Assembly: GCF_018141165.1 (NCBI RefSeq)
Contig: NZ_CP058557.1
Location: 1-64,000, forward strand
DNA length: 64,000 nt
Direction: 5' to 3'
Source of the DNA: Alkaliphilus sp. B6464
GTDB taxonomy: Bacteria > Bacillota > Clostridia > Peptostreptococcales > Natronincolaceae
Below are positions 1,301 to 48,522 of the stretch, in pieces. Within the stretch, counting starts at the first letter, position 1, and each line of letters opens with the position of its first letter. The translations under genes and the position numbers were made by a program. The notes under the pieces were generated by a model. That model searched no databases. It saw nothing but the letters and a program-made list of their open reading frames with translations, and had not been told where the DNA came from.

Positions 1301-2962
1301 TTACGCTTCTCTAAACATTTCAAAGATTTTAAAAGAAACTTGAAGGTTTAAACGATCATTTGGATTTTCTAAGTTCATTCCTGTAATATCTTTAATTCTC
1401 TGCATTCGATAGACAATTGTATTGTAGTGAGTAAACATTTCCTCTGATACTTTTTTCAAATTGCCTCCATACTGAAAAAACATCTGTAGGGTTTTCACAA
1501 GCTCAGAACTCTTTTCCTTATCGTACACCACAAGTGGCTCTAGGGTATCACGATAAAATTGATGAAGCTCACTTTCCATTTCCTCTAAATGAAAAATACG
1601 ATAAATTCCTAAATCATCAAAATGCATATATTCACTCTTATAATTAACTCCCTTATTTTGAAGAGATCTTGCAGCTTCATTGTAGCTTTTCCACAAATGC
1701 CCTGGCTCTTTATGAAATCGTCCTATCCCGATAGATATAGAAATATCCTTTATTTCTTCGTCAACACTTTTTATAATATCATTTGCAAAACTCATAACCT
1801 CTTTTTTTACTTGGGCACTACTTTTATTAGGGTCCGTTCCATATAATATAATAATTTGATCGCTTTTGTTTCCATAAACAAATTTTGCTTCTTTATTTCT
1901 TGATAAGCGATCTATTATTCGCATAATTTTACTATTTAACTGATATAAGAAGGTTGAATTGTTTAAGGTTTCCTTTACAAAACCTTTAATATTTTTAATG
2001 GAAATTACAAGAGCAGAATATCCTAATCTTCTATCAAAGTCGAAGAGCGCTGCTCGATCAACGGCAAGTTGCTGTCTTTTCTCATCTCTCGATAGAAGAT
2101 CATCAAAAAACTCTACCTTATGCCGACTTTCAATTTCAAATATAGAAATCTTCTTAAGAATATGTAATGCGATAACAGGAATAGAAGATTCAAGAGAAGA
2201 TATTTCGATAGAAGTAAGCTTTTTATTATCTTCCCATATAGCTAAATAACCATAATATCGTTCATCTACATAGATAGGAACCATTATTCTCTTTACTTTA
2301 TGTCCTAATAGCTCATCCTCTACTACAGTCATATTGAGAATAGACTCTTCTAATTTCTCGCCTTTAAGCTTGATCTCAATCTCACACTTTTTTTCCTTAT
2401 TTCCGTGGACTACAACTACATCAAAAATTTCATCCTTAATTGCGACTGTATTTCCAATGGTATGCGAGATACCCGCCAATATTTCTTTAAAACTTCCACC
2501 TCTTAGCATTACACGAATAAGCTCATTATGGATCTCCTCTACTTTCATTAGCATGCTGGTTTGTCTACTGATAATCTCCGTAAGCACTGGCATCATAATG
2601 TCTGTATAAGAAGCTTTATAAGGAATTTCTATAATAGGAAATTTGTATTTATTAGCTGTATTAATAATATCCTCTGGCAATCTTTCAATATATCGTTTCA
2701 TTTTAATTCCAATGCCTACAACTCCCTTTTCCTTCAGCCTAGGAATTAACCTTTTTAGTACAGTTATATCTTCTTTTATCGAAAAGGCTGTAGTAAGCAA
2801 AAACTCTCCTACATGAACCCAATCTACAATGTCAGGCACTTCCATCACATTAATCTGAGTAATCCTTTGCTCTAATCCTCCTTCTCCAGCTAACACCTTT
2901 GCTCCCAGCAAATCTTTTAATAAAATCATTTCCGCTACAGTAATCCCTAATGATTTGTTCAA
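1301..2962 (-). CDS. pucR: PucR-family transcriptional regulator
   Basis: The 553-residue protein has the PucR architecture: an N-terminal purine-catabolism-regulator domain (about residues 8-125, starting ITVAEMILLKDLLGA), a central GGDEF-like region, and a C-terminal PucR-type helix-turn-helix (about 480-545, with NLKKVSEEMFTHYNTIVYRM). Bacillus PucR controls purine transport and degradation genes in response to nitrogen supply and allantoin-type effectors. The TTG start at 2960-2962 is chosen because AGGGGG lies 8 bases upstream and the domain begins immediately after. Its position between the xdh/permease genes and allH-fdrA argues that it controls both sides. Inverted repeats upstream of it (3012-3124) suggest autoregulation. 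Confidence 0.9.
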   Translation of the reverse strand: MNKSLGITVAEMILLKDLLGAKVLAGEGGLEQRITQINVMEVPDIVDWVHVGEFLLTTAFSIKEDITVLKRLIPRLKEKGVVGIGIKMKRYIERLPEDIINTANKYKFPIIEIPYKASYTDIMMPVLTEIISRQTSMLMKVEEIHNELIRVMLRGGSFKEILAGISHTIGNTVAIKDEIFDVVVVHGNKEKKCEIEIKLKGEKLEESILNMTVVEDELLGHKVKRIMVPIYVDERYYGYLAIWEDNKKLTSIEISSLESSIPVIALHILKKISIFEIESRHKVEFFDDLLSRDEKRQQLAVDRAALFDFDRRLGYSALVISIKNIKGFVKETLNNSTFLYQLNSKIMRIIDRLSRNKEAKFVYGNKSDQIIILYGTDPNKSSAQVKKEVMSFANDIIKSVDEEIKDISISIGIGRFHKEPGHLWKSYNEAARSLQNKGVNYKSEYMHFDDLGIYRIFHLEEMESELHQFYRDTLEPLVVYDKEKSSELVKTLQMFFQYGGNLKKVSEEMFTHYNTIVYRMQRIKDITGMNLENPNDRLNLQVSFKIFEMFREA

Positions 2963-3011
2963 GGTGATTTCCCCCTATCGCCAAGTACATATTTTCCGCA
3001 TCTTCTGACTT

Positions 3012-3124
3012 ATTGTGTTTTTGTGGTTTATTAACAATGTTTACTCTCGATTGTCTACTATTTAACATTTATATTTTGTGTATTCTACAAAATAATTTTT
3101 GTTCCTTTGTGAAGTTTTCACAAA
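3012..3124. promoter_or_regulatory. Cluster of dyads upstream of pucR, candidate PucR operators
   Basis: Three elements built on TTTGTG/CACAAA half sites occur here. 3012-3025 is ATTGTGTTTTTGTG, identical to 1267-1280. 3073-3093 is ATTTTGT-N7-ACAAAAT. 3106-3124 is a perfect dyad TTTGTGAA-gtt-TTCACAAA. They lie between 50 and 160 bases upstream of the pucR start. The dyads and repeats are seen directly; binding by PucR is inferred. Confidence 0.45.
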
Positions 3125-3158
3125 AATAATAACGCCTCTATTTTTAATAGGGCGTTAT
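3122..3158 (-). terminator. Rho-independent terminator of the NCS2 permease gene
   Basis: Read on the minus strand, a GC-containing stem built on ATAACGCC and GGCGTTAT, extended by CTATT/AATAG with one bulge, is followed by TATTTTTG. It lies about 25 bases after the permease stop and ends transcription before pucR. Confidence 0.85.
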
Positions 3159-3182
3159 CATCCTTAAGTGGGGTTTTATTAA

Positions 3183-4415
3183 TTATTCCTTTGGTAAAAC
3201 CTTATTTAAAATAATACCTACAATTGCTGCTAAAGCCATGCCTTCTATTGTAAAGCTAACAGCTCCAAGTTTAACTGGTAGTACAGCTCCACCTAAACCT
3301 AATACAAAGATGACTGCTGCAATAATTAAATTTTTAGATGATGTAAAATCAATCTTATTTTCTACTAAGCTTCTTCCACCAACTGATGCAATCATACCAA
3401 ATAAAACTATGGAAATACCACCAACTATAGAAGAAGGTATAGTACTTATAACTGCTCCTAACTTTGGCATAACTCCTAAAATAATAGCAAAACATGCTGC
3501 TATTCTCATAATTACTGGATGATAAATTTTAGTTAAAGCTAATACGCCTGTGTTCTCTGCATAAGTTGTATTTGCTGGTCCACCTAAGAAAGCAGACAAA
3601 GATGTAGCTAATCCATCTCCAAGAAGTGTACGGTGTAGTCCAGGAGATTCAATAAAATCATCTTCAACAGTTGTGCCAACAACCAATATATTACCAATAT
3701 GCTCTACTACAGTAGCTACTGCAATAGGTGCAATAATCATAATACTTTCAAGATTAAATTTAGGAAATGTAAAGTTAGGAAGACCGAATAGAGCTGCTTC
3801 TGTAACAGGCGTAAAATCTATATTTCCTGTTATTGCGGCAAATATATACCCACCTACTAATCCAAATAAAACAGGAAGTACCTGAAAGAAACCTTTTGCA
3901 TAAGTACTTACTCCTATAACTATAAGTAAACTTACTACTGCTAATAGCCAATTTTGGCTAGCCATATCTATTGCAGTAGGAGCAAGCTTTAATCCTATTA
4001 CCATTATAATTGGACCTGTAACAATTGGTGGAAAATATTCTACAATTTTCTCGTGACCAAAGAAATAAACGAGGCCTGCTATTATTACATAGGTAAGACC
4101 TGCAACTACAATTCCACCTTGAACATATGGAATACCATACATTTTAGAAACCATAAGCATCGGTGTTATGAAAGCAAAGGATGAACCTAAAAACACCGGA
4201 ATTTTATTTTTAGTTAAGAAGTGAAATAAAAGAGTTCCTACACCTGCCATAAATAGAGCAACTGAAATATCTATTCCTGTTATTAGTGGAACTAAAACTG
4301 TAGCTCCAAACATGGTGAACGTATGCTGCATTCCAAGTATAATCTTTTTCCCTGTAGGAATGTAATCTCCATCCCTGATTGGCTGGTGCTTTTCAACAAC
4401 CTCTTGTTTACTCAT
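3183..4415 (-). CDS. NCS2 (xanthine/uracil) family permease, UraA-like
   Basis: A 410-residue, very hydrophobic protein with the NCS2 fold, about 14 membrane segments. The family signature around residues 285-300 reads GPANTTYAENTGVLALTKIY, the form found in uracil permeases (Glu before NTGV), whereas typical xanthine and urate carriers have a Gln or other residue there. The start is supported by AGGAGG seven bases upstream. Context with xanthine dehydrogenase genes and pucR suggests a nucleobase used as nitrogen source. Family membership is secure; substrate (uracil, xanthine, hypoxanthine) is not settled by sequence, and context and motif point to different answers. It likely works as a proton symporter in the membrane. 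Confidence 0.9.
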   Translation of the reverse strand: MSKQEVVEKHQPIRDGDYIPTGKKIILGMQHTFTMFGATVLVPLITGIDISVALFMAGVGTLLFHFLTKNKIPVFLGSSFAFITPMLMVSKMYGIPYVQGGIVVAGLTYVIIAGLVYFFGHEKIVEYFPPIVTGPIIMVIGLKLAPTAIDMASQNWLLAVVSLLIVIGVSTYAKGFFQVLPVLFGLVGGYIFAAITGNIDFTPVTEAALFGLPNFTFPKFNLESIMIIAPIAVATVVEHIGNILVVGTTVEDDFIESPGLHRTLLGDGLATSLSAFLGGPANTTYAENTGVLALTKIYHPVIMRIAACFAIILGVMPKLGAVISTIPSSIVGGISIVLFGMIASVGGRSLVENKIDFTSSKNLIIAAVIFVLGLGGAVLPVKLGAVSFTIEGMALAAIVGIILNKVLPKE

Positions 4416-4474
4416 ATAACAACCTCCTCTGTATTTGTCAACACTTTTAACCTAAACCCCACTTGTATTTATTT

Positions 4475-4513
4475 AAACCAACTTGTTGAGGCTTCGACAT
4501 AACAAGTCGGTTT
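4475..4513. other. Long hairpin between xdhA and permease genes
   Basis: AAACCaACTTGTT pairs with AACAAGTcGGTTT around a 13-base loop, 13 bp with one A-C mismatch. There is no good U-run on either side, so it is more likely an RNA stabiliser/processing stem or a protein site than a terminator. It lies between the xdhA stop and the permease start. Confidence 0.5.
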
Positions 4514-4521
4514 AGTAAATC

Positions 4522-6837
4522 TTAGATATTCTTCTCTTTTTCTTTAATGGCATTTAAAACCTTCTCTGCCGTAATTGGTAAAGATTTAATTCTTACCCCT
4601 ATAGCATCGTATACTGCATTTGCGATAGCAGGAGCAGTAGGCACCATACAAGGCTCTGCTACACCCCTAGCCCCGAAAGGTCCAGTTTCTTCTGGATTTT
4701 CTACAAAATTTACAATCATTTCTGGCATATCACCAGCAGTTGGTATTTTATAATCTACAAAAGATGGATTTTTAACTATACCATTTTCAATTACTAGTTC
4801 TTCAAAAATAGCCGATCCAATCCCTTGAATAATTCCACCTTCTACCTGACCTTCAATTAAATTTGGATTTATAACCTTTCCTACATCAAAACATGAAGCT
4901 ACCTTTAAAACGTCAATTTTTCCTGTTTCTTTATCAATTTCAATTTCTACTCCTTGAGTACCATATGTCCAAAAAGCAACTGGCTTTTCGCCTTGCCCAG
5001 TAAATTTATCTGTATTTCTAACATTAGGTGGAATAAATGAACCTCTTCCAATAATAGGTCCATGGATTCCAGAACCATCTGGTAGGGATAATCCTAAAGC
5101 TAGATCTTTAATAGCAATTTTCTTATCTGGATAGATTTTAGATGCCACATATCCATCGACTAATACTAAATCTCGCTTATATATCCCTAGAGCTAGCTGT
5201 GCTAGTTCAAATAACTGTTCTTTTGCATCTTCGCAGGCATTAATAATGGCATTACCTGAACAGTAGGTTATACGGCTAGCAACAGTCTGCCATTCGTATG
5301 GAGTATGGTCCGTATCTCCAGTCTTAATTGTAATCTTATGAGGTGGTATGCTCAATGCTTCTGCTGCAATCTGTGTTAATGCGGTATCAGAACCCTGCCC
5401 AATATCTTGGCCACTTACTAAAAGATGCGCTGTCCCATCTTCATTTAATTTAATAATAGCAGCAGAAGCTACGTCATTCGGCATAGATGGAGCCTTAAAT
5501 CCACAAGCAATACCTTTTCCTCTAACCTTATTAGTTTTACTTGGAGGATTTCTCTTACCCCACTCAATATTTTTAGCTACATCTTCTAAACACTCTAATA
5601 ATCCACATTGCTCAATAATTTCTCCAGTAGCGTTACTTCCTCCTGGCTTTAACCCATTTATTCTTCTAATATCTACTGGATCCATACCAAGTTTTTCTGC
5701 TAATAAATCAATGTTTTGTTCTATAGCAAAATGTATTTCTGACATTCCAAATCCTCTATAAGGTCCTCCAACAGGATGATTTGTATATACACAAATTGAA
5801 TCTGTCCATAGATTAGGAATATCATATGGTCCTGATGAACTATAGCCTCCAGCTCTTACAATGTTTACACCATATTCTGTATAGGCTCCGCCGTCCCATA
5901 CAAAGTTATTTTTAACACCTATGATTTTACCATCTTTATCTACTCCAGTTTTAATGGTTGCGTGCATTCCTTGCCTTACAAAGCTGTTTACAAACTCATC
6001 TTCCCTTGAATAAGTTAATTTTATTGATCTCCCTCTTAGCTTTTTGGCTAATGGAATGATAATACCCTCTAGAGTTGTTCCTGCCTTGCCACCAAATCCA
6101 CCACCAACTGCTGGTGAAAGTACACGAATTTTGTTTAATGGTAAGTCAAAAGCTACAGAAAGTGCCTTACGTACTGCATATGGAGATTGGCAACTAGACC
6201 AAATAGTTAAGCTCCCATCACGATCCATTTGAGCAATGGCACTATGATTTTCAATAGGACTGTGTTGAATATGAGGCACAAAGAAACTATTTTCTACAAT
6301 ATGCTCTGCTTCCTCGAAAGCTTTTTCAACATCTCCCTTTCTTACTCTATAGTGATTACTTATATTTGTACCTGGTTCTGGGAAAAAAATTGGACCATAA
6401 TGATATTCTCCTAAATCTGGATGCACCAAAGGAGCATCTGGCTTTAAAGCTTCAACAGCATTACTTACTACTGGTAATTCTTCATATTCTACATCAATTA
6501 AATCTATTGCCATTTTTGCTATTTCTTTAGTTTCAGCTGCTACGGCCGCTATAGCCTCGCCTCTATAACGAACTTTATCAGTAGCTAAAAAGGTTTTGTC
6601 TTCAAGATAAAGTCCTACTCGATTAGGCACATCCTTGCCTGTAATAACTGCCTTTACTCCTGGCAAAGCCTCTGCCTTACTGGTATCTACTTTTAATAGC
6701 TTGGCATGAGGGTAGGGACTTCGCTTTACATCTGCATATAACATTTTTGGAAGCTTCATATCATCTACATATTTTAATTCTCCTGTAACCTTTTTAATTC
6801 CATCAACGCGATTTACGCTTTTACCAATATATTTCAT
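4522..6837 (-). CDS. xdhA: Xanthine dehydrogenase-type molybdenum-binding subunit
   Basis: A 771-residue molybdopterin-binding large subunit of the xanthine oxidase family. The aldehyde-oxidase a/b hammerhead domain covers about residues 15-120, followed by the two Moco-binding domains. Visible signatures are the cofactor loop VGGGFGGK near residue 255 and GARGVAEPC near residue 735, the latter carrying the catalytic glutamate position. It hydroxylates a purine such as hypoxanthine or xanthine using water as oxygen source. The frame is open from a TTG at 6855, but the ATG at 6835-6837 has AGGGGG seven bases upstream, so I use that. It is the third gene of xdhB-xdhC-xdhA. Exact substrate is inferred from the pucR and permease context; other Mo-hydroxylases look similar. 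Confidence 0.9.
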   Translation of the reverse strand: MKYIGKSVNRVDGIKKVTGELKYVDDMKLPKMLYADVKRSPYPHAKLLKVDTSKAEALPGVKAVITGKDVPNRVGLYLEDKTFLATDKVRYRGEAIAAVAAETKEIAKMAIDLIDVEYEELPVVSNAVEALKPDAPLVHPDLGEYHYGPIFFPEPGTNISNHYRVRKGDVEKAFEEAEHIVENSFFVPHIQHSPIENHSAIAQMDRDGSLTIWSSCQSPYAVRKALSVAFDLPLNKIRVLSPAVGGGFGGKAGTTLEGIIIPLAKKLRGRSIKLTYSREDEFVNSFVRQGMHATIKTGVDKDGKIIGVKNNFVWDGGAYTEYGVNIVRAGGYSSSGPYDIPNLWTDSICVYTNHPVGGPYRGFGMSEIHFAIEQNIDLLAEKLGMDPVDIRRINGLKPGGSNATGEIIEQCGLLECLEDVAKNIEWGKRNPPSKTNKVRGKGIACGFKAPSMPNDVASAAIIKLNEDGTAHLLVSGQDIGQGSDTALTQIAAEALSIPPHKITIKTGDTDHTPYEWQTVASRITYCSGNAIINACEDAKEQLFELAQLALGIYKRDLVLVDGYVASKIYPDKKIAIKDLALGLSLPDGSGIHGPIIGRGSFIPPNVRNTDKFTGQGEKPVAFWTYGTQGVEIEIDKETGKIDVLKVASCFDVGKVINPNLIEGQVEGGIIQGIGSAIFEELVIENGIVKNPSFVDYKIPTAGDMPEMIVNFVENPEETGPFGARGVAEPCMVPTAPAIANAVYDAIGVRIKSLPITAEKVLNAIKEKEKNI

Positions 6838-6857
6838 TATTTTTCCCCCTTTCAATT

Positions 6858-15817: not shown

Positions 15818-16129
15818 GCCAAAACCTCCTCGTCACATAGACATAGATTTTAGGGACGGGAACTTTTATAAGATGGAAACTCCCGTCATTCTAACTGATA
15901 TAATAACAAATTATAATTCACACTTCAACCTCCAAGAGTATTGTTTTTCCACTGTACCAGTATATTTGATAGTGTTTTTATATAAAAAATTCCCTCAAAT
16001 TATAATCTGAGGGAACATAAAATACACTTCAAATTTTATTTTCTTCCGATATGTTAATCACCGATAAACCCAAATAGTTCAGAAAATCACACAATTTATT
16101 TAGTTTTATAATATCATTATTACCATGTA
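15818..16129. other. Gap before the methyltransferase operon, with a terminator stem
   Basis: Contains the stem TTCCCTCAAAT-N4-ATCTGAGGGAA at 15988-16013. Otherwise no gene-like signal is visible. The hairpin is a plausible terminator of the corrinoid methyltransferase operon ending at 16130. Confidence 0.6.
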
Positions 16130-17203
16130 TTATTCCTGACTATTTAATAAATCTAAGTCTATCGGATACTTCCCATACCTACGTCCTGCCTCCATAAACA
16201 TTTCTATCTGTTCAATAGGTGTATTCATTGGAATTTGACATCCGGTACTGAGTATATACCCTTTTGGTGAATCATATCCTTTCCTAATGGACTCCTTTAC
16301 AGCTTTGTTTATATCAGCTCTGCTGCCTAAGTAAACTGCATCTACAGGAGGCACATTTCCTGTAATAACTACTTTATCACCCATCATTTCCTTTGCATCA
16401 TCCAGGTCCTCTTCATTGTCAATGCTAAAATTAGAAATTCCTGCATTAACAACATCCTGCCATAGTTTTTTGCTTTTCCCGCATATATGTATTCCAGGGG
16501 CACTGCCAGTGGTTTCTTTAATTTTATTGATATTCATTTGAAGATAGGGCAGTGAAAATTCTCTAAACAGCTTTGGACTTATAATACTGGTAGAGGACAT
16601 AGGATCTGCAAATCCAATGGATAAGCCTAGCTTGGCTACCTCCTCAATATACCTATTATTAGATTCAGCTACTATCTCCATTAAAGTATGTACCTTTTCT
16701 GGATATTTTATCATCCATCTTAACATATTCTCTGTACCAACTACAGATGCCGCCACACTGAAGGGCCCAGACATGGCAGCTCCAACATCTACATCCTTTA
16801 TCAGTGCATCTCTAGTCAGCTTAAGAGCCTTGAGCAGTATAGGCAGTTTACCATCCTTTAATGGATTAACCACCTTTAAACTTTCTATTTCTTCTACAGA
16901 TTTAACAGCTGGGTCTAAAAGATACGAAATATTATAGTCCGGATATGCTACTTTAGAGCCCATAGCTTCTGCCATACCCCGAAGGCTTGTAGAAATACCT
17001 ACACTGTCATGGCGCAACCTTTTAAATAATGCAATTTCCAGTTCAGCCATAAGCTCAGCTGAATGGTAGTAATCACTTGCCTTTATGCCAAGAAATGGAA
17101 CCATAGTTACGCCCATGTCTGGAACACAAATCACCCTGTCAATTTCCTCTCCTCGACTAAAAGCATCCATTCTTTCCCTTGGAGTCATTTCTTCCTTAAT
17201 CAC
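16130..17203 (-). CDS. UroD-superfamily (MtaA-like) methyltransferase
   Basis: A 357-residue TIM-barrel protein of the uroporphyrinogen decarboxylase/MtaA/CmuA superfamily. Its zinc-site signature is intact: IHICGKSKKLW near residue 238 and the later Cys in LSTGCQIP near residue 322. Such proteins move methyl groups between a corrinoid protein and a thiol or pterin acceptor, or from substrate to corrinoid. It is the last gene of a five-gene operon containing a corrinoid protein, so true UroD activity in heme synthesis is unlikely. Which methyl transfer it does (MT1 or MT2) cannot be told from sequence alone. Confidence 0.85.
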   Translation of the reverse strand: MIKEEMTPRERMDAFSRGEEIDRVICVPDMGVTMVPFLGIKASDYYHSAELMAELEIALFKRLRHDSVGISTSLRGMAEAMGSKVAYPDYNISYLLDPAVKSVEEIESLKVVNPLKDGKLPILLKALKLTRDALIKDVDVGAAMSGPFSVAASVVGTENMLRWMIKYPEKVHTLMEIVAESNNRYIEEVAKLGLSIGFADPMSSTSIISPKLFREFSLPYLQMNINKIKETTGSAPGIHICGKSKKLWQDVVNAGISNFSIDNEEDLDDAKEMMGDKVVITGNVPPVDAVYLGSRADINKAVKESIRKGYDSPKGYILSTGCQIPMNTPIEQIEMFMEAGRRYGKYPIDLDLLNSQE

Positions 17204-17265
17204 TTAAAACACACTCCCCTCTATTAATATTTAAACGGTCTTAAGCTACAGCAATGAAGATTAAT

Positions 17266-19050
17266 TTACGGAAACACAAGGCATTTAGCAAATAACTCTT
17301 CATAGCATTCAGAAGCTCCAAGTTCTATATAATCTATTTCCTTTGCTAAGACTTCCATTTCTTTTCTTACATCAATAGACATTAAGGCCATATAGGCTCC
17401 AGTCTTTGAAGAGTTACCTACATATACTAATTTATTTCTTACTTCTTCAGGCAATATTCCTACTCCTATTAGACTATCAGCTGGTAGATGAGCACCAAAT
17501 TGTCCTGCTATCATAACGCTATCCAACTGTTGGATTTCAATATTTGCCTGCTTCAGCAATGCATAAAAGCCAGATAGTATAGCGCCCTTGGCTAGTTGTA
17601 CTTGACGAAGGTCCCCTTGTGTAATCAGCAATTCTTTAGAGGCTTCAGCTAAAATAAATTCACGTTTTATACCATTCAATTTAAGCATATTATAGCGATA
17701 GTCAGCTTCATCCAGCCCATCTAGCTTTATAAAGGCACCACTCTTTTTCACAATACCTGTTTGCAGAAGCTCCCTCACGGCTGCCAAAATACCACTCCCA
17801 CATATTCCAATGGCTTCCTGATCTCCTATAACTTTAAGTTTAATACCTTCTTCTGTAATCCTTACATCTTCAATAGCACCCTCTGCCGCTCTCATACCTG
17901 AACTAATATTCATTCCCTCCAAAGCTGGCCCAGCGGCACAGGAGCAGGATAACAATTTGCCATTACTTGATAAAATTATTTCACCATTAGTTCCTATATC
18001 TACAAATAAAACATTTTCTTTTAATTTATGTAGCTGACAAATATATGCACCAGCCACAATATCAGCACCAATATATGCTGAAACGGAGGGAAGACAATAT
18101 AAGATAGCATTTTCTCCAACCATCAAGCCAATTTCTTCAGCCCGTAAAGTTTTTGATTTTATGAATGCAGGAGAATAGGGAGCCTTGCCAATGGATGCTG
18201 CCTCGATCCCCAGGAGAAAGTGAAGCATGGTGGTGTTCCCTGCAGCAGAGATTTCATAAATATTTTCCCTGTCTATTCCTGCTTGGGTGCTTATATCCCC
18301 TATCATTTCATTTAATACGGCAACTATCTCCTGCTGAAGCTTTTCCCCAGCCTCCATTGGATGTTCTATGACATATGTAATTCTCGTTAAAACATCCAGT
18401 CCATATTTTTTTTGAGGGTTAAGCCTTGAAGCTATTGCCAGTTCTTCCCCTGTTATTATATCGATTAGGGCTGCAACAATAGTTGTGGTCCCAATATCAA
18501 TTGCCACTCCATAAAGGCGGTCAGTTGTATCACCTATCTCAATACCAATTAGTTCTTCATCGTACAGTATACCGGTAACCTTTCCGTAAGAGGCATCCAG
18601 CTGATGCAATAATCTCCAGCTGATGCCTTCAATTCCAAAGGCTTCCCTTAAAGAATCCTCATAGGCTATTTGCCTGCCAAGAGTGGGCTTTTCAACCTCT
18701 CTGAGAACCTTTTTAATTGCAGGCTTAAAGTTAAATCCGGGCATATAGCCCTTTGTAAGTATCTCATGTCTTCCTTCCATTTGCAGAAGCTCTATAGTTA
18801 TATCCTTCTGAGGAACTACAAAACAGGAAAGCCTGATACCGTCAGCAATTTCCTCCTGCTTCAAAAGCTTACCTTCTGTTTCTGACATTTGAGGAAGCTC
18901 ACCCTCAAGTAATCTTATCTTGCATTTTCCACAGGAGCCCTTTCCATTGCAAGGATTGTCAATAAATATATCCTTCTCTATTAAAAGCTGCATTAAATCC
19001 TTATTCGGTATATACTCGATATTCTTATTATAAATTGATATTTTAGGCAT
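17266..19050 (-). CDS. RACo-like corrinoid-protein reductive activator (ASKHA, 2Fe-2S)
   Basis: A 594-residue protein. Residues 1-95 form a [2Fe-2S] ferredoxin domain with CNGKGSCGKC near residue 34 and the last Cys in RLSC near 75. The remainder is the ASKHA ATPase core of the RACo/RamA-like reactivators, with IDIGTTTIVAALID near 184 and LFVDIGTNGEIIL near 347. These enzymes use ATP to return inactive cob(II)alamin in a corrinoid protein to cob(I)alamin. It lies between two UroD-type methyltransferases and downstream of a corrinoid protein, so its client is evident. Confidence 0.9.
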   Translation of the reverse strand: MPKISIYNKNIEYIPNKDLMQLLIEKDIFIDNPCNGKGSCGKCKIRLLEGELPQMSETEGKLLKQEEIADGIRLSCFVVPQKDITIELLQMEGRHEILTKGYMPGFNFKPAIKKVLREVEKPTLGRQIAYEDSLREAFGIEGISWRLLHQLDASYGKVTGILYDEELIGIEIGDTTDRLYGVAIDIGTTTIVAALIDIITGEELAIASRLNPQKKYGLDVLTRITYVIEHPMEAGEKLQQEIVAVLNEMIGDISTQAGIDRENIYEISAAGNTTMLHFLLGIEAASIGKAPYSPAFIKSKTLRAEEIGLMVGENAILYCLPSVSAYIGADIVAGAYICQLHKLKENVLFVDIGTNGEIILSSNGKLLSCSCAAGPALEGMNISSGMRAAEGAIEDVRITEEGIKLKVIGDQEAIGICGSGILAAVRELLQTGIVKKSGAFIKLDGLDEADYRYNMLKLNGIKREFILAEASKELLITQGDLRQVQLAKGAILSGFYALLKQANIEIQQLDSVMIAGQFGAHLPADSLIGVGILPEEVRNKLVYVGNSSKTGAYMALMSIDVRKEMEVLAKEIDYIELGASECYEELFAKCLVFP

Positions 19051-19056
19051 CTATTA

Positions 19057-20073
19057 TTACAGCTCCTTTGTTAAAACCTCCAACATTGACTTTACATTTT
19101 TTAATGGCGACTTCATCCCCAACCCACATGCCGGCGATATTATATTGGCTCCGTCCTTAGCACATTTTTTTGTCAGTTCTGCAATTCTTCCAGGCTCTCC
19201 AAATTCAATAGTATATGTACTAACATTACCCATTAGCAGTCTATCTGGCAGGTTTTCCTTTGCTTCCTTCATGCTGACTATAGAATCAAAGCTTAAGACA
19301 TCACTTTTAAGCTTATTTACCTCAGCATAAGCATTCTTCATTTGACCGCATATATGCACAATCGTCGAGATTCCTGCTCTTTTCACACTATCAATAATTT
19401 TATTTATATAAGCTACAGTAAATTCATCAAATAGCTTGGGCCCTAAGATTTCCCCCGTGCCACTGGGGTCGGAAATTGCTATAATATCCGCACCAGCCTC
19501 TATTTGTTCTTCAGCAAAGGCTATTAGCTGGTCAGTGATAAAAGCCATAAATTCATGGGCTTCCTTATTAGATTTTCTTAGCTCCTTATAAAGGGCCACA
19601 GGTTCCATTATGGAGCTGGCTGTGCTGATAGGTCCTGTTATATTGCCTATAATCGGCACATTGCTGTCCTTTGTCCTCAGAAGCTTAATTGCATCTAAAA
19701 CTACCTTTACCCTTCCCTGTTTATGGTTTATTGGATAAATATGTCTCCATTCCTTAACAGAACTAATTGTATATTCAATGACATGAGGCTCGAAAATGCT
19801 TGTCCCCATGTCAACCCCAGCTCCAAACTCCTCTGCCTCAATGGTCATGCAAAAGGGTACACCATAGTTTTCAAAGCATCCTGCTTCATAAACTGCGGCT
19901 GCTAAATCAGCCATCATTTCAGAATTCATATGGGCCTCCGGAAGGCCTATCCCCACATCTTCGATTAGCTCCATAGTTACCATATTCATCATACCGCCTG
20001 GGCATATGCATGGTGGTCTGTCAACCTCTTCTCTGTTGAGGACCTTCTTTAATCTCTCCTTTGGCGATAGCAT
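19057..20073 (-). CDS. UroD-superfamily (MtaA-like) methyltransferase
   Basis: A 338-residue member of the MtaA/UroD superfamily starting LSPKERLKKVLNREEVDRPP, the usual N-terminal helix. The zinc motif is IVHICGQMKNAY near residue 238 with the third ligand in SPACGLGMKSP near residue 315, so the metal site looks complete. GNITGPISTASSIM near 145 is also typical. It lies 6 bases from the reactivator gene and 17 from the corrinoid protein gene. Likely the methyl transferase partner of the neighbouring corrinoid protein. Confidence 0.87.
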   Translation of the reverse strand: MLSPKERLKKVLNREEVDRPPCICPGGMMNMVTMELIEDVGIGLPEAHMNSEMMADLAAAVYEAGCFENYGVPFCMTIEAEEFGAGVDMGTSIFEPHVIEYTISSVKEWRHIYPINHKQGRVKVVLDAIKLLRTKDSNVPIIGNITGPISTASSIMEPVALYKELRKSNKEAHEFMAFITDQLIAFAEEQIEAGADIIAISDPSGTGEILGPKLFDEFTVAYINKIIDSVKRAGISTIVHICGQMKNAYAEVNKLKSDVLSFDSIVSMKEAKENLPDRLLMGNVSTYTIEFGEPGRIAELTKKCAKDGANIISPACGLGMKSPLKNVKSMLEVLTKEL

Positions 20074-20090
20074 AAAAATACACTCCTTTG

Positions 20091-20750
20091 CTATGCTATA
20101 TTAAGCAGATTTTTTAGTAATTTAACGGCTTCAACTGCATTGGAAGAATAACCGTCTGCACCTATTGTGTCTGCAAATTTTTTTGAAATTGGCCCTCCGC
20201 CTATTACTACCTTTACCTGTTCTCTGATTCCAGCCTCTTTCAATAGGGCTACAACCGTCCCCATTCCCGACATAGTTGTTGTCATCAGGGTTGACAGACA
20301 TACAAAGGAAGCATTAACAGCTATAGCCTTATCTACAAAGTTCTGCAAGGGAACATCCCTGCCTAAATCATGCATTTCAAAGCCAGCTGTTTCCAGCATA
20401 ATTTTAACCAGATTTTTACCTATATCATGGGTATCACCCTCAACTACTCCTATCACACCCTTTGGCCTTTCTTTATTCAGCTCACTTGCCGGGAGATGTG
20501 GTCTTAGTATCGACAAACCTTCGTACATTGCATCTGAGCAAAGCAATATATCCGTAACGAAGTATTCCTCCTCTTCATACAATTGATCTGCCCGATTCAT
20601 GCCATCAACAAGGCCGTCCATAATACCTTCAAAGGCCGGGTATCCTGCTTTAATATACTCATTGCAGGCTTCAATAACCTCTTCCTCCTCCATGTTAACT
20701 ACACCATCAGATAATTTTTTTAATAAGCTCTCCTTTAATATTGCCATCAT
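20091..20750 (-). CDS. Corrinoid protein (MtbC/MttC-like)
   Basis: A B12-binding methyl-carrier protein of about 219 residues. An N-terminal cap of four helices (residues 1-85) precedes the Rossmann-like cobalamin domain. The lower-ligand signature GDTHDIGKNLVKIML near residue 104 supplies the His that coordinates cobalt, and VVIGGGPISKKFAD near 180 is the second conserved loop. It accepts a methyl group from a substrate and passes it to an acceptor methyltransferase. GGAG at 20756-20759 serves the ATG at 20750 (or the next ATG at 20747) rather than the GTG further out. Central member of this operon. Confidence 0.93.
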   Translation of the reverse strand: MMAILKESLLKKLSDGVVNMEEEEVIEACNEYIKAGYPAFEGIMDGLVDGMNRADQLYEEEEYFVTDILLCSDAMYEGLSILRPHLPASELNKERPKGVIGVVEGDTHDIGKNLVKIMLETAGFEMHDLGRDVPLQNFVDKAIAVNASFVCLSTLMTTTMSGMGTVVALLKEAGIREQVKVVIGGGPISKKFADTIGADGYSSNAVEAVKLLKNLLNIA

Positions 20751-20807
20751 TTTCACTCCATTCTACATAGAAGCTATTTTTTAATTTTCAGGATAACTAT
20801 AAATATA

Positions 20808-21677
20808 TCAAAGTAAATCAATAGCTTTTATAATGCCGTTTTTCAATTCAAAGCCCTTATTTTTAACGCACATCTGCCCAGTAAATTTGGCCTTGCCAAT
20901 AATCCTTTTACAGCCCTCTGAATACCCTACAGCTTCTCCTAAATCTATATCCCTCCAGACGGCTTTTTCTGTTCCTAGTAATGCAAAGGCGGTTTTGGGG
21001 CAAAGCAGCATAATTGCTTTATCCTTTAGGACAGCTTCAACCCTTTTAAATAAAGGATAAGTGAACCTCTCCACCACCTCTTCAGAAAGCTTGGGCCCCA
21101 ATATATTTAGGCCCCCGATGGAATCGCCATAGCTTATCATATTGACCCCTGATTTTTGAGCCTCCTCTATAAAGCCTAATATTTCTTTTTGTAGCTTTTC
21201 AAATATCTTCTGCATAACTTCTGGCTGTTTCTTTAATATTTTAAAAAGGTATCTAGCATCCATCAAAGTATTTAAAATTGTAAAAGGTCCTGAAACATAT
21301 AAAATTACATCCTCGCCCTTTTCTCTTAAATACCTACAAGCTTTCAGAACCCCTGCAATCCGTCCCTTTGAAAAATCTATTTCTGGCAGCTTTAAAAGTT
21401 CTTCGGCAGTAGTGCATATGTACTCCTTAGCCCTTGGGCCAATATTTTCATCTCCATAATTTATAATTCCTCCCAGAGCCTCTGCCTCAAGGGTATGACA
21501 AAAAGGAAGCTCACAAAATTCGGCATTATCACGTTTCTTTATAGCAATAGCCAGCTTTGCCATAGCTTCCCATTCTTTATAGGCCTCTGGAAACTTTAAA
21601 TTTATATTTTCTGTAACTATGGTGCCAACACCTTCAAAATAGTCATAGGTGCACTGAAAATCAATAATTTTGCTCAT
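20808..21677 (-). CDS. Divergent UroD-superfamily methyltransferase-like protein
   Basis: A 289-residue protein, about 50 residues shorter than its two paralogues in the operon. It aligns by eye with them (CELPFCHTLEAEALGG corresponds to PFCMTIEAEEFGAG in the 338-residue protein). The canonical HxC zinc motif is not kept: the equivalent reads IMLLCPKTAF, with Leu in place of His, while a later Cys occurs in GQMCVKNKG. It may bind zinc differently, be a substrate-binding MT1 of new type, or be non-catalytic. It is the first gene of the operon. Confidence 0.75.
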   Translation of the reverse strand: MSKIIDFQCTYDYFEGVGTIVTENINLKFPEAYKEWEAMAKLAIAIKKRDNAEFCELPFCHTLEAEALGGIINYGDENIGPRAKEYICTTAEELLKLPEIDFSKGRIAGVLKACRYLREKGEDVILYVSGPFTILNTLMDARYLFKILKKQPEVMQKIFEKLQKEILGFIEEAQKSGVNMISYGDSIGGLNILGPKLSEEVVERFTYPLFKRVEAVLKDKAIMLLCPKTAFALLGTEKAVWRDIDLGEAVGYSEGCKRIIGKAKFTGQMCVKNKGFELKNGIIKAIDLL

Positions 21678-21941: not shown

Positions 21942-21968
21942 AATACCAATGTATACAACATTGGTATT
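21942..21968 (-). terminator. Terminator of the J-domain protein gene
   Basis: AATACCAATG pairs with CATTGGTATT around a 7-base loop, and on the minus strand the stem is followed by TTTTTTTAG. It lies 44 bases after the stop of the J-domain gene. The rest of the 21678-22011 gap (334 bases) is AT-rich without visible genes and includes the promoter side of the methyltransferase operon. Confidence 0.85.
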
Positions 21969-23646: not shown

Positions 23647-26013
23647 TTATTGAATTATTTTTATTTCCTTAGCTCTGCAACAAGCCCTAATATCACGAAT
23701 GGTTTGTTTAAACATCTCAACATATTTGATATCGGATTTAATAACAACCTCATCTATTTCTGCTTTCATTGATAAAGCATTCTCAGACTTATACTTTCTT
23801 GCATCAGCGATAATGTCCTTTAGCTTCTCTCCAAAAAGAATAATCTCATCGTCAATAGGTTTTTCAGCTTCCCAATACAACTTGTGTAAAGAAATACTAT
23901 TCTCATTCTGTCTAAAGAATTCTTGATAAATATATTCGGTGATATGTGGAACGTAAATAGCGTATAACTTTAATATATTAAGCATGCAATAATATAGGGC
24001 ATATTGTGCTGATTGTCGCTCTTTATATCCATGTATTTCGGGTTGATATAGACGATCTTTAACAATCTCAAGATAATAGTCACATAGATCCTTCCAGAAG
24101 AAATCATCAATTTCATGTCGGGCTGGTCCTATTTCATATTGGTCAAGGAGCTGTCTTGCATTAATAGTAGTTTGTTTACATCTCTCGATTATCCACCTGT
24201 CTACAGGCATTAGATCCACATCAGCATTGAGGTTAATGTCCTGTAAATGATATATTGAAAATTTAAATGCATTCCATAGCTTTGTGATAAATCTCTTGGC
24301 TATACCTAATTCATCAATTGAGAAAAATGTGTCTGTTCCAAGTTTCGAATTAGCAGCCCAATATCTTATAACATCAGCAGACTGGTTTTCAATAAGCAAT
24401 TTTGGTGATACCTCAGAGTTGCTCTTTGATTTGCTAATTTTCTCTCCTTTTTTAGCAAGAACAAAACCACAAACCATTATATCCTTCCAAGGAATTTGGC
24501 CCGTATGGTAAAGACTTTTAACTATAGTATAAAATGCCCATGTACGTATAATTTCATGAGCCTGTGTCCTCAAACTCATTGGTAAAACTTTATTTGAAAT
24601 ATCATTTTTTTCGCCCCATTTTGCATTTATCTGAGGAGTAACTGATGAAGTAGCCCATGTATCAAAAACCGAACTCTCAGGCACAAATTCTTCACACCCG
24701 CAATAACAGGGCTTGTTAGGTTTTGTTTCAAGAGGATTTATAGGCAACATCTCTTCATCTGCAATTATAACCTTACCACAATTTTTGCAATACCATATTG
24801 GGAAAGGAACACCAAAGTAACGCTGACGGGAGATACACCAGTCCCACTTAAGATTTTCAACCCATAATACGTATCTGTTTTTCATATATTCTGGATACCA
24901 ATTGATTTCATCAGCAGCTTTTAAAAATAGCTCTTTATTAGTAAGAATATCAATATACCACTGTTTTGACGGCAAAATCTCAATTTCCTTTCCGCAACGT
25001 TCGTGTACAGCAACAGTATGTGTGATACTTTTTGACCCTAAAAGAAATCCATTTTCTGAAAGTAGGCTAATAATCCGTTTCCGAGCTACTAAGACCTTTA
25101 ATCCTCCGATTAGCGGAACACTTTCGTCTATTGTACCATCAGGTAGAATAACTTTCCGATAGGGCAGTTTGTGAGTCTCATACCATTCCACATCAGTGCT
25201 GTCACTAAAGGTCGCACACATAACTACACCTGTTCCTTTATCAATATCAACCTTATCATCTGTCAATATAGGAATTTCATAGTCATATAAAGGAACAATA
25301 GCATTTTTTCCAATATATCTTTTATATCTATCATCCTCTGGGTTTACAAATAGACAAACACAACCATATAGTAATTCAGGTCTTGTTGTAGCTACTACTA
25401 ATCCTTCTTCACCTATCTTAAATTTAACGTAATTAAAGGTAGTGTCCTTTTCAATAGACTCCAACTCTGCCTGGGCTATTGAAGTTTTACATTCAGTACA
25501 CCATAAAACTGGCGACTCCTTCATATATGCCTTTCCATCTTTCAAAAGTTTGATAAATGATTTTTGTGATATTCGCTGAACCATAGGGTTAATGGTTTCA
25601 TATTGAAGCGACCAGTCAACCGAGAAACCCAAAGACTGCCATAAATCTTTAAACTCTTTTTCGTATTTTGCAGAGGTTGTAATGCACCTTTTAATAAATT
25701 CGCTTCTCAGAAGGTCTTTTGCAATAATACCCTCCTCTTTTTCAACAAGCCTTTCTGTTGGTAATCCGTTGTCATCAAAACCAAAAGGATAAAAAACATT
25801 ATAGCCCTGCATTCGTTTGAAACGTGCTATCATTTCTGCCTGTGTATAAGAAAATATGTGTCCAATGTGCAGGCTACCACTAATAGTAGGTGGCGGCGTA
25901 TCAATAGAATAGATTTCATTTTGACTATCAACGTCAAAACTATAGATACTATTCTCTTTCCAAAAATTTTGCATCTCTTTTTCTACTTGCTTAAAGTCAT
26001 AGTTTTTCTGCAT
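23647..26013 (-). CDS. valS: Valyl-tRNA synthetase, short archaeal-like type
   Basis: A 788-residue class I synthetase. The HIGH motif is SGSLHIGHIFS near residue 34 and the KMSKS equivalent is GEKISKSKSN near residue 515. A zinc-binding insertion with CKNCGKVI and CYCGCEEF is present. It lacks the long C-terminal coiled coil of usual bacterial ValS (about 880 residues), which marks the shorter archaeal-type branch found in some clostridia. The ATG at 26011-26013 follows AGGAGG by seven bases. A T-box leader with a GTA (valine) specifier upstream independently supports the amino-acid assignment. A second canonical valS may exist elsewhere in the genome. Confidence 0.9.
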   Translation of the reverse strand: MQKNYDFKQVEKEMQNFWKENSIYSFDVDSQNEIYSIDTPPPTISGSLHIGHIFSYTQAEMIARFKRMQGYNVFYPFGFDDNGLPTERLVEKEEGIIAKDLLRSEFIKRCITTSAKYEKEFKDLWQSLGFSVDWSLQYETINPMVQRISQKSFIKLLKDGKAYMKESPVLWCTECKTSIAQAELESIEKDTTFNYVKFKIGEEGLVVATTRPELLYGCVCLFVNPEDDRYKRYIGKNAIVPLYDYEIPILTDDKVDIDKGTGVVMCATFSDSTDVEWYETHKLPYRKVILPDGTIDESVPLIGGLKVLVARKRIISLLSENGFLLGSKSITHTVAVHERCGKEIEILPSKQWYIDILTNKELFLKAADEINWYPEYMKNRYVLWVENLKWDWCISRQRYFGVPFPIWYCKNCGKVIIADEEMLPINPLETKPNKPCYCGCEEFVPESSVFDTWATSSVTPQINAKWGEKNDISNKVLPMSLRTQAHEIIRTWAFYTIVKSLYHTGQIPWKDIMVCGFVLAKKGEKISKSKSNSEVSPKLLIENQSADVIRYWAANSKLGTDTFFSIDELGIAKRFITKLWNAFKFSIYHLQDINLNADVDLMPVDRWIIERCKQTTINARQLLDQYEIGPARHEIDDFFWKDLCDYYLEIVKDRLYQPEIHGYKERQSAQYALYYCMLNILKLYAIYVPHITEYIYQEFFRQNENSISLHKLYWEAEKPIDDEIILFGEKLKDIIADARKYKSENALSMKAEIDEVVIKSDIKYVEMFKQTIRDIRACCRAKEIKIIQ

Positions 26014-26044
26014 GGTAATACCTCCTAAAATTTTACGAACACAA

Positions 26045-26345
26045 AACAAAAAGTCCGCCTAAAGCTTTCTAATGTTTAGCTTAGGGCGAACTGTATGCGT
26101 CCGTGGTACCACCTATATTCAGATATGACTATCTGCACTCTGCCAATACGGGATAGATTCATATTTAAATCATCCGATATTGCTTTCCTTTTAACGGTGG
26201 AAATTTCCGTTGAAGCCTACTAAGATTATATCTTTTCAGTTCACAGCTCAAAGGCTACTTCCATACTTCCGTCACGAAGATTTTCACCAACCATCTTCTC
26301 TCTATGCTTCGGGTGAGTATGTACTCCTCCTCGTCAACGCCATTT
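26045..26345 (-). promoter_or_regulatory. T-box riboswitch leader of valS
   Basis: On the minus strand the leader shows the stem I AG-bulge/GGTG loop (AGAGAG..GGTTGGTGAAAA, 26282-26307), a specifier region with GGAAGTAGCC whose GTA at 26256-26258 reads valine, and the T-box GGTGGTACCACGG at 26101-26113. The terminator stem follows at 26052-26092 (AGTTCGCCCTAAGC against GCTTTAGGCGGACT) and ends in TTTTTG. Uncharged tRNA-Val would stabilise the antiterminator and switch valS on. Confidence 0.9.
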
Positions 26346-26466
26346 TGTTCGTGTTCGTTTATATTATGATATTCTATTATGCTCAAAAAGTCAATATTTA
26401 TGTTGCTATTTTTTGAAAATTCAGGATTAAATTAGTATCAATACATCCAACAAAAACTCACACGTC

Positions 26467-41391: not shown

Positions 41392-42870
41392 TTACTTTAA
41401 CGTTTGTAGAACACGTTCAACGAGCAAATCTACTAATTGATCCTTACTAAGTCCCAAGTGTTCAACAGCTATAGCACTAACTTCTTCAAATATATCTTCT
41501 CCACGTATTTCATCTAATGTCCTAACGCCATAAACGACCCGGCGAAGATTAAATAAATTCTGTGGGCCAACATTGTCGGAAGTTGAACTTCCTCCTACAG
41601 CTCCACAACCTAGTGTCAAGGCAGGCATAAGGTTTGTAGTTGCTCCTATCCCACCTAATGTAGCTGAACAGTTTATTAGTAGTCGTGAAACTGGCACTTT
41701 TAAGGCGAATTCTTCTGTAATTCTTGTGTTTGTTGTGTGAATGACCATGGTGTGTCCTGCGCCTTCAAAGTTTAAAATCTTGATACTTAAATCGCGAGCT
41801 TCTTCCCAAGTGTTTACCGTATAAAAAGCTAAAATTGGTGATAGTTTTTCCCTTGAATAAGGTGCAAGATTACCAACACGTGTTTCTTCAGCAATAAGAA
41901 CTTTTGCATCTTCTGGTACAGAAATACCAGCTAATTCAGCAACAACCCGTGCACTCCTTCCAACGATCTTAGGATTCATTGTACCGTTTGGTCGTAGAAT
42001 ATACTTTTCAAGTTTTAGGGCATCTTCTTTTGATAAAAAATAACCACCCTGTTTCTTGAATTCTGAAATCACTTTTTCTCTACTGACTTCTTCAACAATA
42101 ATAGATTGTTCAGATGCACAAACTGTACCATTATCAAATGTCTTAGATTCAAGAATAAGCTCAACTGCTTTCGGGATATCTGCACTACGTTCTATAAATG
42201 CAGGTCCATTACCCGGTCCAACTCCAATTGCTGGTCTTCCAGAGGAATATGCTGCACGAACCATTGCAGACCCACCAGTAGCAAGAATTAAGTCTGTATT
42301 TTCATTTTTCATTAATTCATTTGTTGCCTGCATTGTAACTGTTGTAATTACACTAATAGCACCATCTGGTAAGCCAACATTTTTTCCTGCTTCATTTATA
42401 ATGCGAACTGTTTCCTTGATACAATTTAATGCACTTGGATGAGGTGAAAATACAATAGCATTTCCTGCCTTAATGCTTATTAGTGCTTTGTAGATAACTG
42501 TTGATGTGGGATTTGTTGAAGGAATAAGACCTGCAACCACTCCAACTGGAACAGCCACTTCCATATATTTAGCTTGTATATTATTTTTGATTATACCAAC
42601 TGTCTTCATATCTTTAATTGCATTTAATAAATCTCTTGATGCAAAGGCATTTTTAAGGACTTTATCTTGCCATCTTCCAAATCCTGTTTCTTCTTGTGCC
42701 ATTTTAGCTAGTTTCACACGATTGTCAAAAGCTGCCTTTGCTATAGCCTTGCAAATGGTGTCGATTTGTTCTTGAGATAACTTGGCTATTTCTTTTTGTG
42801 CTTCTTGTGCTCTCTTCAGTAAATCCCTAGTTTCTTGAACTGAAACAAGGTCTTTATCTATCAATCCCAT
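41392..42870 (-). CDS. eutE: EutE, CoA-acylating acetaldehyde dehydrogenase
   Basis: A 492-residue aldehyde dehydrogenase of the acylating type. The catalytic Cys lies in GTVCASEQS near residue 248, and the NAD loop region reads ATGGSAMVRAAYSS near residue 203. It oxidises acetaldehyde with CoA to acetyl-CoA. The N-terminal helix LVSVQETRDLLKRAQEAQK is the expected shell-targeting peptide. The start abuts the stop of the BMC-SAP gene (1-base overlap), so both are translated together. Confidence 0.95.
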   Translation of the reverse strand: MGLIDKDLVSVQETRDLLKRAQEAQKEIAKLSQEQIDTICKAIAKAAFDNRVKLAKMAQEETGFGRWQDKVLKNAFASRDLLNAIKDMKTVGIIKNNIQAKYMEVAVPVGVVAGLIPSTNPTSTVIYKALISIKAGNAIVFSPHPSALNCIKETVRIINEAGKNVGLPDGAISVITTVTMQATNELMKNENTDLILATGGSAMVRAAYSSGRPAIGVGPGNGPAFIERSADIPKAVELILESKTFDNGTVCASEQSIIVEEVSREKVISEFKKQGGYFLSKEDALKLEKYILRPNGTMNPKIVGRSARVVAELAGISVPEDAKVLIAEETRVGNLAPYSREKLSPILAFYTVNTWEEARDLSIKILNFEGAGHTMVIHTTNTRITEEFALKVPVSRLLINCSATLGGIGATTNLMPALTLGCGAVGGSSTSDNVGPQNLFNLRRVVYGVRTLDEIRGEDIFEEVSAIAVEHLGLSKDQLVDLLVERVLQTLK

Positions 42871-43487
42871 TAATGCTCAACTCCTTTATCCAGCAACGCT
42901 TCAATAAGCACTGCTTTATTAGCAGATTTAATTTCTGATTTCTTTATGGTAGAAAGATTTAATTTATATGCAAGTGAACGTAAATCGGCCACTTTCATTT
43001 TCTCTAGTTGTCTTTTATCAAAGGATGAATCTACAATTGTATCTACTCCATGTTCCAAATTTTCCTCTAAAATTTCTTTTGATTCATTCAAAGGTACGAG
43101 TAAAGCATTCTTTTTTTCTTCCACTATTTCATCTTTCTCTGTTTCTTCTATGATGGGTTGATTTGATTTCTTTGAGTCCGGAGGATTATCTTCCTTTTTA
43201 CCAAATGATTTCATCAACATCTGCTCAACTTGGTCATCCAAACGCGGGATAACATGGCTACTAATTAGACTATTCTTATTTGCCAAAGCAACTTCACCTG
43301 CCTCAACCGCTGCTTTTACTGCCGCAATATCTCCAATAATATGAATTGTTGTCAATCCTCCACGGATTGCTTCTCCTCCAAGTAAAGTTACATTTGCCGC
43401 CTTTGCAGCTGCATCTGCTGCTAGGATTGCACCTAACTTTCCATGTACTTCAATTAAACCTAATGCCTTAGCCACATTAACCACCAC
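42870..43487 (-). CDS. BMC shell protein with C-terminal SAP-like domain (EutK-like)
   Basis: A 205-residue two-part protein. Residues 1-85 are a BMC domain (ALGLIEVHGKLGAILAADAA, GEAIRGGLTTIHIIGD). An acidic, low-complexity linker spans about 95-155. The last 45 residues, with LEKMKVADLRSLAYKLNL then KANKAVLIEALLD-like spacing, fit a SAP or Rho-N-like helix-extension-helix used for nucleic-acid binding. E. coli EutK has a different, winged-helix tail, so the analogy is in layout. It overlaps eutE by one base and eutL by none. Confidence 0.85.
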   Translation of the reverse strand: MVVNVAKALGLIEVHGKLGAILAADAAAKAANVTLLGGEAIRGGLTTIHIIGDIAAVKAAVEAGEVALANKNSLISSHVIPRLDDQVEQMLMKSFGKKEDNPPDSKKSNQPIIEETEKDEIVEEKKNALLVPLNESKEILEENLEHGVDTIVDSSFDKRQLEKMKVADLRSLAYKLNLSTIKKSEIKSANKAVLIEALLDKGVEH

Positions 43488-44141: not shown

Positions 44142-44251
44142 TAGGAAACCTCCTTTTTAAATCAGGCAGTTTTTATTTTGAGCACTTGAAACTTTAAGCT
44201 TTATCTAGAGTTGAGTGCGACATAAAGTTTGTGAGCCTAAGCGAACAAATT

Positions 44252-45157: not shown

Positions 45158-45181
45158 TGGTTATCCTCCTCTTAGAAATAT

Positions 45182-46549: not shown

Positions 46550-46569
46550 TGTACATCCTCCTTTTATCT

Positions 46570-48000: not shown

Positions 48001-48042
48001 CTTATCTACTCCCTTTAAATATGTTGAATATTTTAAAACTTT

Positions 48043-48127
48043 TTAAAAAAATAAACGCTTAATAAAAGGTCCATAATTGTCCCCCTATTAAGCGCCTTTG
48101 CTTTTATCTATGACCTTGTTGTCATAG
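48043..48127 (-). promoter_or_regulatory. Candidate EutV-type (ANTAR) antiterminator plus terminator
   Basis: On the minus strand hairpin P1 (48108-48127) is CTATGAC-AACAAG-GTCATAG. P2 (48090-48103) is AAGC-AAAGGC-GCTT. The 3' arm of P2 is also the 5' arm of a terminator, GCGCTTAATA..TATTAAGCGT (48054-48095), followed by a run of seven T. Two hairpins with six-base loops, the second overlapping a terminator, is the known EutV target design (AGCAANGRRGCUY). Each loop departs from that consensus by one base. Confidence 0.65.
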
Positions 48128-48153
48128 TTTATATATTAATTTTTAAATGTAAT

Positions 48154-48498: not shown

Positions 48499-48522
48499 GT
48501 AATCACCTCATTTAATCAAAAC

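Follow-up and report, generated by a model that had tools for sequence, protein, structure and literature searches.

The window analysed here, the first 64,000 nucleotides of contig NZ_CP058557.1 of Alkaliphilus sp. B6464 (assembly GCF_018141165.1), holds a five-gene corrinoid methyltransferase operon on the − strand, whose genes we call A, B, C, D and E in transcription order (21677 → 16130). The operon matches, and is a new member of, the type 1 mlp gene cluster, a system already described but hardly characterised. We put at about 0.66 the probability that it strips methyl groups from methyl-selenium (or methyl-sulfur) compounds via the corrinoid protein B and passes them to a thiol acceptor. 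The features of the locus are:

21942..21968, − strand: terminator-like hairpin of 11 pairs between the upstream gene and A (consensus match only)
20808-21677, − strand: A, 289 aa; Pfam URO-D, 1.6e-24; Mlp1-like UroD-fold protein
20091-20756, − strand: B, 221 aa; Pfam B12-binding and B12-binding_2; corrinoid protein
19057-20073, − strand: C, 338 aa; Pfam URO-D, 2e-79; MtaA-like methyltransferase, Mlp3-like
17266-19050, − strand: D, 594 aa; Pfam Fer2, RACo middle and RACo C-terminal domains, with the RACo linker below cut-off
16130-17203, − strand: E, 357 aa; Pfam URO-D, 1.7e-83; UroD-type methyltransferase, Mlp2-like by tree position
15989..16016, − strand: terminator-like hairpin of 12 pairs after E (consensus match only)

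A sequence-only reading of this DNA had described five co-directional genes including one corrinoid protein and one RACo-like reactivator; the coordinates and the Pfam domains bear this out. The intergenic gaps are 51, 17, 6 and 62 bp (A–B, B–C, C–D and D–E). The hairpin after E may mark the operon's 3′ end, and the other may set the operon apart from the upstream gene; six terminator-like sites were found versus 4.0 in shuffles, so that such sites are weak taken alone. B carries the motif DTHDIG, visible in its sequence. By its domains, D is a predicted ATP-dependent reductive activase of the RACo/Ram type for B. With NCBIfam models, C alone scored above cut-off (PRK06252, 424 bits versus 244), and for each of the other four proteins even the best model stayed below its cut-off.

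In a preprint by Kountz & Balskus (PMC10418091), the type 1 mlp gene cluster is proposed to demethylate methyl-selenium compounds or to salvage methionine. The cluster, which is present in more than one hundred genera of anaerobes, is made up of several Mlps, a corrinoid protein and a Ram protein, with no H4folate methyltransferase. An assay is reported for one protein only, ClMlp2 of Clostridium ljungdahlii, which transferred methyl from methylcobalamin to selenide in vitro. The zinc ligands are His-Cys-Cys (H-C-C) except in several Mlp1, and the H-C-C type is linked to S/Se. Mlp1 is often missing from such clusters, and 87% of the species with a cluster have the selenocysteine trait (all PMC10418091). 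The operon in the window likewise combines three UroD/SCMT-like proteins, one corrinoid protein and one Ram/RACE protein in one direction, with gaps below 2 kb and no divergent gene between them. No tetrahydrofolate methylase lies within 20 kb, PF00809 being without a match genome-wide. The sequence-only reading had taken the operon for an orphan system with an unknown methyl donor. This view is superseded, as the operon matches a published cluster whose proposed methyl donor is a methyl-selenium or methyl-sulfur compound (PMC10418091). The gene order differs: Mlp1-Mlp2-corrinoid-Mlp3-Ram in C. ljungdahlii, A-B-C-D-E here, where the Mlp2 slot of C. ljungdahlii is empty and E stands at the operon end. 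A further likeness is with SdmABC of Methanococcus voltae and MMJJ_01650-70 of M. maripaludis, which combine UroD-type proteins and a corrinoid protein in methyl-selenide use; these are archaeal, and only parts of the cluster are studied there. Deletion of sdmC ended dimethylselenide use in M. voltae, as retold in PMC10418091, and passages of PMC11097638 give a 5.6-7.8 log2-fold increase of the M. maripaludis counterpart upon selenium depletion.

The assignment of A, C and E was examined in a tree of 126 UroD-type proteins from 44 loci, together with MtaA and two HemE; rows below 250 aa were left out. The loci were the window, three named loci and stretches from 40 of 68 other matching genomes, hand-picked along the ranking and not random. 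The tree was a quick one with support from the Shimodaira–Hasegawa-like approximate likelihood ratio test (SH-aLRT) only and no bootstrap. A, C and MtaA formed one clade (SH-aLRT 98) with E outside, and the two HemE rows split off (SH-aLRT 100). The topology agrees with that of the preprint for Mlp2 and Mlp3, compared without the ClMlp2 and ClMlp3 sequences in the tree. By this topology and the gene content, A, C and E would be orthologues of Mlp1, Mlp3 and Mlp2, respectively. The phylogenetic check against MtaA and true UroD called for by the sequence-only reading thus grouped none of the three with heme UroD. A role as HemE was rejected on the same grounds and by TIGR01464, which gave scores of 29, 82 and 86 bits versus a cut-off of 303. 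Aligned to M. mazei MtaA, both C and E have the zinc motif H-C-C, as had been read from the sequence, and the motif recurs in 36/36 C and 49/49 E rows (at least 250 aa, window included).

A selenium trait is present in the organism. The genome (3.86 Mb, two contigs, rated 100% complete) contains selA (E 9e-189) and, ~7 kb from it, a selenocysteine tRNA (tRNA-Sec) gene of 70 bits, above the gathering threshold; the other 31 hits in the genome scored below it. A tRNA-Sec above gathering was found in 5/14 control genomes. We then surveyed 393 genomes of the order; a C homologue (E ≤ 1e-60) was found in 62 and selA (E ≤ 1e-3) in 255. selA was present in 52 of the 53 genomes with a C homologue of at least 50% identity versus 203 of the 340 without any such homologue (Fisher p 6e-10); the lone genome without selA is 63% complete. 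Removal of the ten weakest selA matches, a guess at those below cut-off, gave 51/53 versus 194/340. Counted per genus, a milder test, selA was present in 23/23 genera with such a C homologue versus 91/135 others (p 2.7e-4). The genomes are related, which makes these p values optimistic. The co-occurrence backs a methyl-selenium role for the kind of cluster found here, though relatedness inflates the numbers. Near the cluster in two of the loci is a protein of the HGD-D family (L004:2404-3576, by Pfam; L005:8194-9342, by reading), perhaps the dicubane-type protein linked to selenium metabolism in PMC10418091.

Searches of the genome also bear on the fate of the methyl group. A, C and E are the only URO-D matches and B is the only B12-binding_2 match; the latter family defined the search for B12-binding proteins, families with PF02310 alone lying outside it. 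The genome has no match to MttB (PF06253; 1/14 control genomes match; MtaB was not searched for), so the lack of MttB noted earlier for the neighbourhood holds genome-wide. Together, these results agree with the earlier view of a corrinoid methyltransferase operon with a UroD-type substrate-specific methyltransferase (MT1). The genome was likewise without a match to Pterin_bind (PF00809; 13/14 controls match), MTHFR (11/14) and the C-terminal domain of MetE (10/14). An MttB-type or folate-linked demethylase system was rejected for this genome on the lack of PF06253 and PF00809 matches. Judging from these searches, the organism seems to be without a methyl-folate branch, MetH and MetE, and it is possibly a folate and methionine auxotroph. 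One stand-alone protein of the homocysteine methyltransferase type is present (PF02574, 8.9e-58, 287 aa). Since Pterin_bind, MTHFR and MetE have no match, folate is an unlikely acceptor, and the methyl group probably leaves to a thiol. If B carries methyl, its removal should fall to A, C, E or the PF02574 protein, and a thiol acceptor would be the simplest reading. To our knowledge, coenzyme M (CoM) is not to be expected as acceptor in this bacterium.

From the gene content, the zinc residues, the tree topology, the presence of selA and tRNA-Sec and the lack of a folate methyl enzyme match, we infer every reaction step in this organism as follows. A UroD-type methyltransferase, most likely the Mlp2-like E, would use its His-Cys-Cys zinc site to take the methyl group from methylselenol, dimethylselenide or a similar methyl-Se or methyl-S compound and transfer it to Co(I) of B. 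A thiol, for instance sulfide or homocysteine, would receive the methyl group from B through the Mlp3-like C, and D would re-reduce B with ATP once it is oxidised to Co(II). The freed selenide would feed selenocysteine synthesis. The Mlp1-like A, which has kept one zinc Cys and has a second Cys that is invariant, would be a divergent UroD-fold partner. Its substrate may be a further methyl-Se/S compound, or it may help to handle metal or selenium.

A deviates from its paralogues at the zinc site. The replacement of the zinc His by Leu (Leu224), seen earlier, was confirmed, and in addition the third ligand Cys is gone (L-C-gap). A family members were counted in 41 of the 44 loci; L053, L055 and L056 had no A among the open reading frame (ORF) picks, though A matches had brought those genomes in. 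The His is missing in 24/41 members (18 Leu, 2 Ile and 1 each of Ser, Phe, Tyr and Val), and the third-ligand column is a gap in 40/41, the lone exception looking like an alignment effect. Since 24 members are without the His, the Leu is, on the alignment, a clade-wide feature and not a local lesion. Five residues are invariant in 41/41: Cys226 (codon 21000-21002), Cys270 (codon 20868-20870; both − strand), Asp185, Arg82 and Gly267. Family members are 274-331 aa long (n = 41, window included), save two fusions of 595 and 600 aa to a CobW GTPase. Compared with a genome of the same genus, the ratio of nonsynonymous to synonymous substitution rates (dN/dS) of A is 0.144, and those of its operon neighbours are 0.069-0.197. 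The open frame of 294 codons is only five codons longer than the 289-aa ORF. That A is a decayed gene was rejected on the kept length, the dN/dS and the residues invariant in all members.

The sequence-only reading had asked for a structure prediction of A to see whether a metal site forms. An AlphaFold2 model from four sequences (predicted local distance difference test (pLDDT) 81, predicted template modelling score 0.82; pLDDT < 50 at residues 1-8, 12-17, 79-82 and 188-191) has the UroD/MtaA fold. Foldseek returned M. mazei MtaA as best match (3e-12) and UroD next, and in VIA-align HemE and MtaA were tied (Z 17.0 and 16.8); the fold of A therefore says nothing decisive on function. A shares this fold with the soluble CoM methyltransferases MtaA, MtbA and MtsA, from which it differs by the lack of two zinc ligands. 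Cys226 follows strand 222-225 and Cys270 comes just after strand 265-267. Both are thus at strand ends, which is where TIM-barrel active sites lie. Cys270 as a replacement metal ligand stays conjectural. phmmer sets the GQ preceding Cys270 against the GN of MtaA, and MAFFT places Cys270 elsewhere.

In many relatives, A is tied to CobW, defined here by a blastp match (E ≤ 1e-4) to the L004 protein; Pfam was run for the CobW of L004 and L050. The CobW gene is directly upstream of A in 15/41 loci, fused to A in 2/41 (as one ORF in L050:7080-8867 and in L051), elsewhere in the locus in 3/41 and absent from 21/41, window included. Among the 17 loci with CobW adjoining or fused, A is without the His in 11 and bears it in 6. 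In Acetoanaerobium noterae (L085, read outside the counts), CobW overlaps A by 4 nt. In the Alkaliphilus genome, a search yielded no more than three partial matches, which scored 20-24 bits, lay in frames of 325-491 aa and were taken for other P-loop proteins. CobW as a required partner is thus unsupported here. Passages of PMC2770081 (Haas 2009) describe COG0523 (CobW) proteins as putative metal chaperones and place subfamily 13 next to corrinoid methyltransferase genes, for example in M. maripaludis and C. botulinum. The operon relatives share this neighbourhood; the fusion to, or overlap with, an Mlp1-like gene is absent from those passages. CobW is unnamed in the main text of the preprint (PMC10418091), and a CobW-Mlp1 fusion was not found in the literature searched, including that main text and the passages of PMC2770081, which is no proof of its being unpublished. 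The CobW tie suggests an unusual metal site in A. Given the putative role of CobW proteins as metal chaperones, A could receive metal as a client despite the lost His.

Several observations weigh against the methyl-selenium reading or limit it. C homologues below 50% identity show no link to selA (5/9), selA is common in the order regardless (255/393), and no clear selenium gene was seen among the neighbour genes examined, part of the neighbours having been scanned. C is unsupported as a single clade, and long branches were flagged, MtaA among them. The identity of A to a fragment of M. mazei MtaA (22.9%) falls below the 25% level of the preprint, with C (32.6%) and E (27.1%) above it. E belongs to a sub-branch of 29 rows; 7 rows of another branch, of 13 rows, fill the A–B slot, which is the Mlp2 slot of C. 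ljungdahlii. This genome may therefore lack the assayed Mlp2 lineage, and its methyl donor may not be exactly the same. L045 carries one E from each branch, and the same gene order and lengths are seen in L085. A plasmid collection held one record, from Acetoanaerobium noterae (2.6 Mb, without annotation there). Finally, A occurs without C in 12/69 genomes (cut-offs A 1e-20 and C 1e-60, on which the count depends), and A may thus have uses outside the cluster.

The same type of cluster might instead serve methyl-sulfur or methionine salvage, with methyl passing from a methylthioadenosine-derived or other methyl-S compound via B to homocysteine. The preprint proposes this role for ~10% of the clusters (PMC10418091), and the PF02574 protein would be a possible partner in a genome without a MetE, MTHFR or Pterin_bind match. 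We consider it unlikely all the same: the preprint links it with genomes that lack selenium traits, selA and tRNA-Sec are present here, and no methionine or sulfur genes were among the neighbours read or scanned. The likeness to mlp clusters could also be due to chance if the operon were a one-carbon catabolic system of the mec, cmu, cdm or O-demethylase type, acting on halomethanes or methoxylated aromatics. According to passages of PMC9768040, the mec cassette for dichloromethane has three UroD-superfamily proteins, one of them of 288 aa (MecI), a corrinoid protein and reactivators (the latter in most strains), and the model scoring E best is MtaA/CmuA (190 bits, below the cut-off of 235). 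Unlike the operon in the window, the mec cassette includes two-component regulators and a putative pterin-binding MT2. Such bacterial systems pass the methyl group to folate (MecF has a pterin-binding site in the same passages), and this genome has no Pterin_bind match. The intact H-C-C sites favour S/Se by the argument of the preprint (PMC10418091), and the selA link of C homologues also speaks against it. We regard this reading as very improbable.

The sequence-only reading had thought it possible that the aberrant A starts the pathway. The evidence does not support this, since the preprint assayed the Mlp2 lineage and the Mlp2-like place in the tree belongs to E rather than to A. An MT1 with a non-zinc or Cys-only site would find some backing in the conservation of A (dN/dS as above) and its travelling with the cluster (57 of the 62 genomes with C also hold A, at the cut-offs given), and a zinc-free UroD-type MT1, CdmB, appears in passages of PMC13222342. 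Mlp1 is, however, often missing from published clusters (PMC10418091); C is found without A in 5/62 genomes, in each of which the identity of C is 40-45%, and A without C as counted above, both cut-off-dependent. Four loci (L058, L060, L061 and L064) hold divergent A homologues without any of B, C and D. We therefore regard A as a most improbable MT1. A tie of lone A to methionine synthase was rejected: the large ORFs beside A in L058, L060 and L061 match DNA polymerase I, SbcC-like and S-layer families. A somewhat better, still tentative, proposal is that A is a new kind of UroD-fold metalloprotein in which a Cys-based site (Cys226, Cys270, perhaps Cys9/Cys60) would replace the lost His and third Cys. 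A dedicated CobW GTPase, sometimes fused, would load the metal in many species. A would then serve methyl-selenium handling in a cell without a folate methyl branch, so that methyl leaves the corrinoid protein to a thiol.

Three other loci were noted in the window. An ethanolamine utilisation locus (41392-49662), which we take to be a second B12-dependent system, encodes EutA, EutB, EutC, two bacterial microcompartment shell proteins and aldehyde and Fe-alcohol dehydrogenases. Positions 1301-6855 encode a PucR-type purine regulator and a molybdopterin-binding xanthine/aldehyde oxidase-like subunit that could be a selenium-dependent molybdenum hydroxylase. A T-box leader (26079-26346) is upstream of an 800-aa protein (23647-26049) resembling valyl-tRNA synthetase, named by sequence reading.

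Because no folate-methyl family and no further URO-D or B12-binding_2 protein were found in its genome, this organism offers an uncluttered setting for tracing the fate of the methyl group. The neglected Mlp1, for its part, has a role made testable by its two invariant Cys and its link to CobW.

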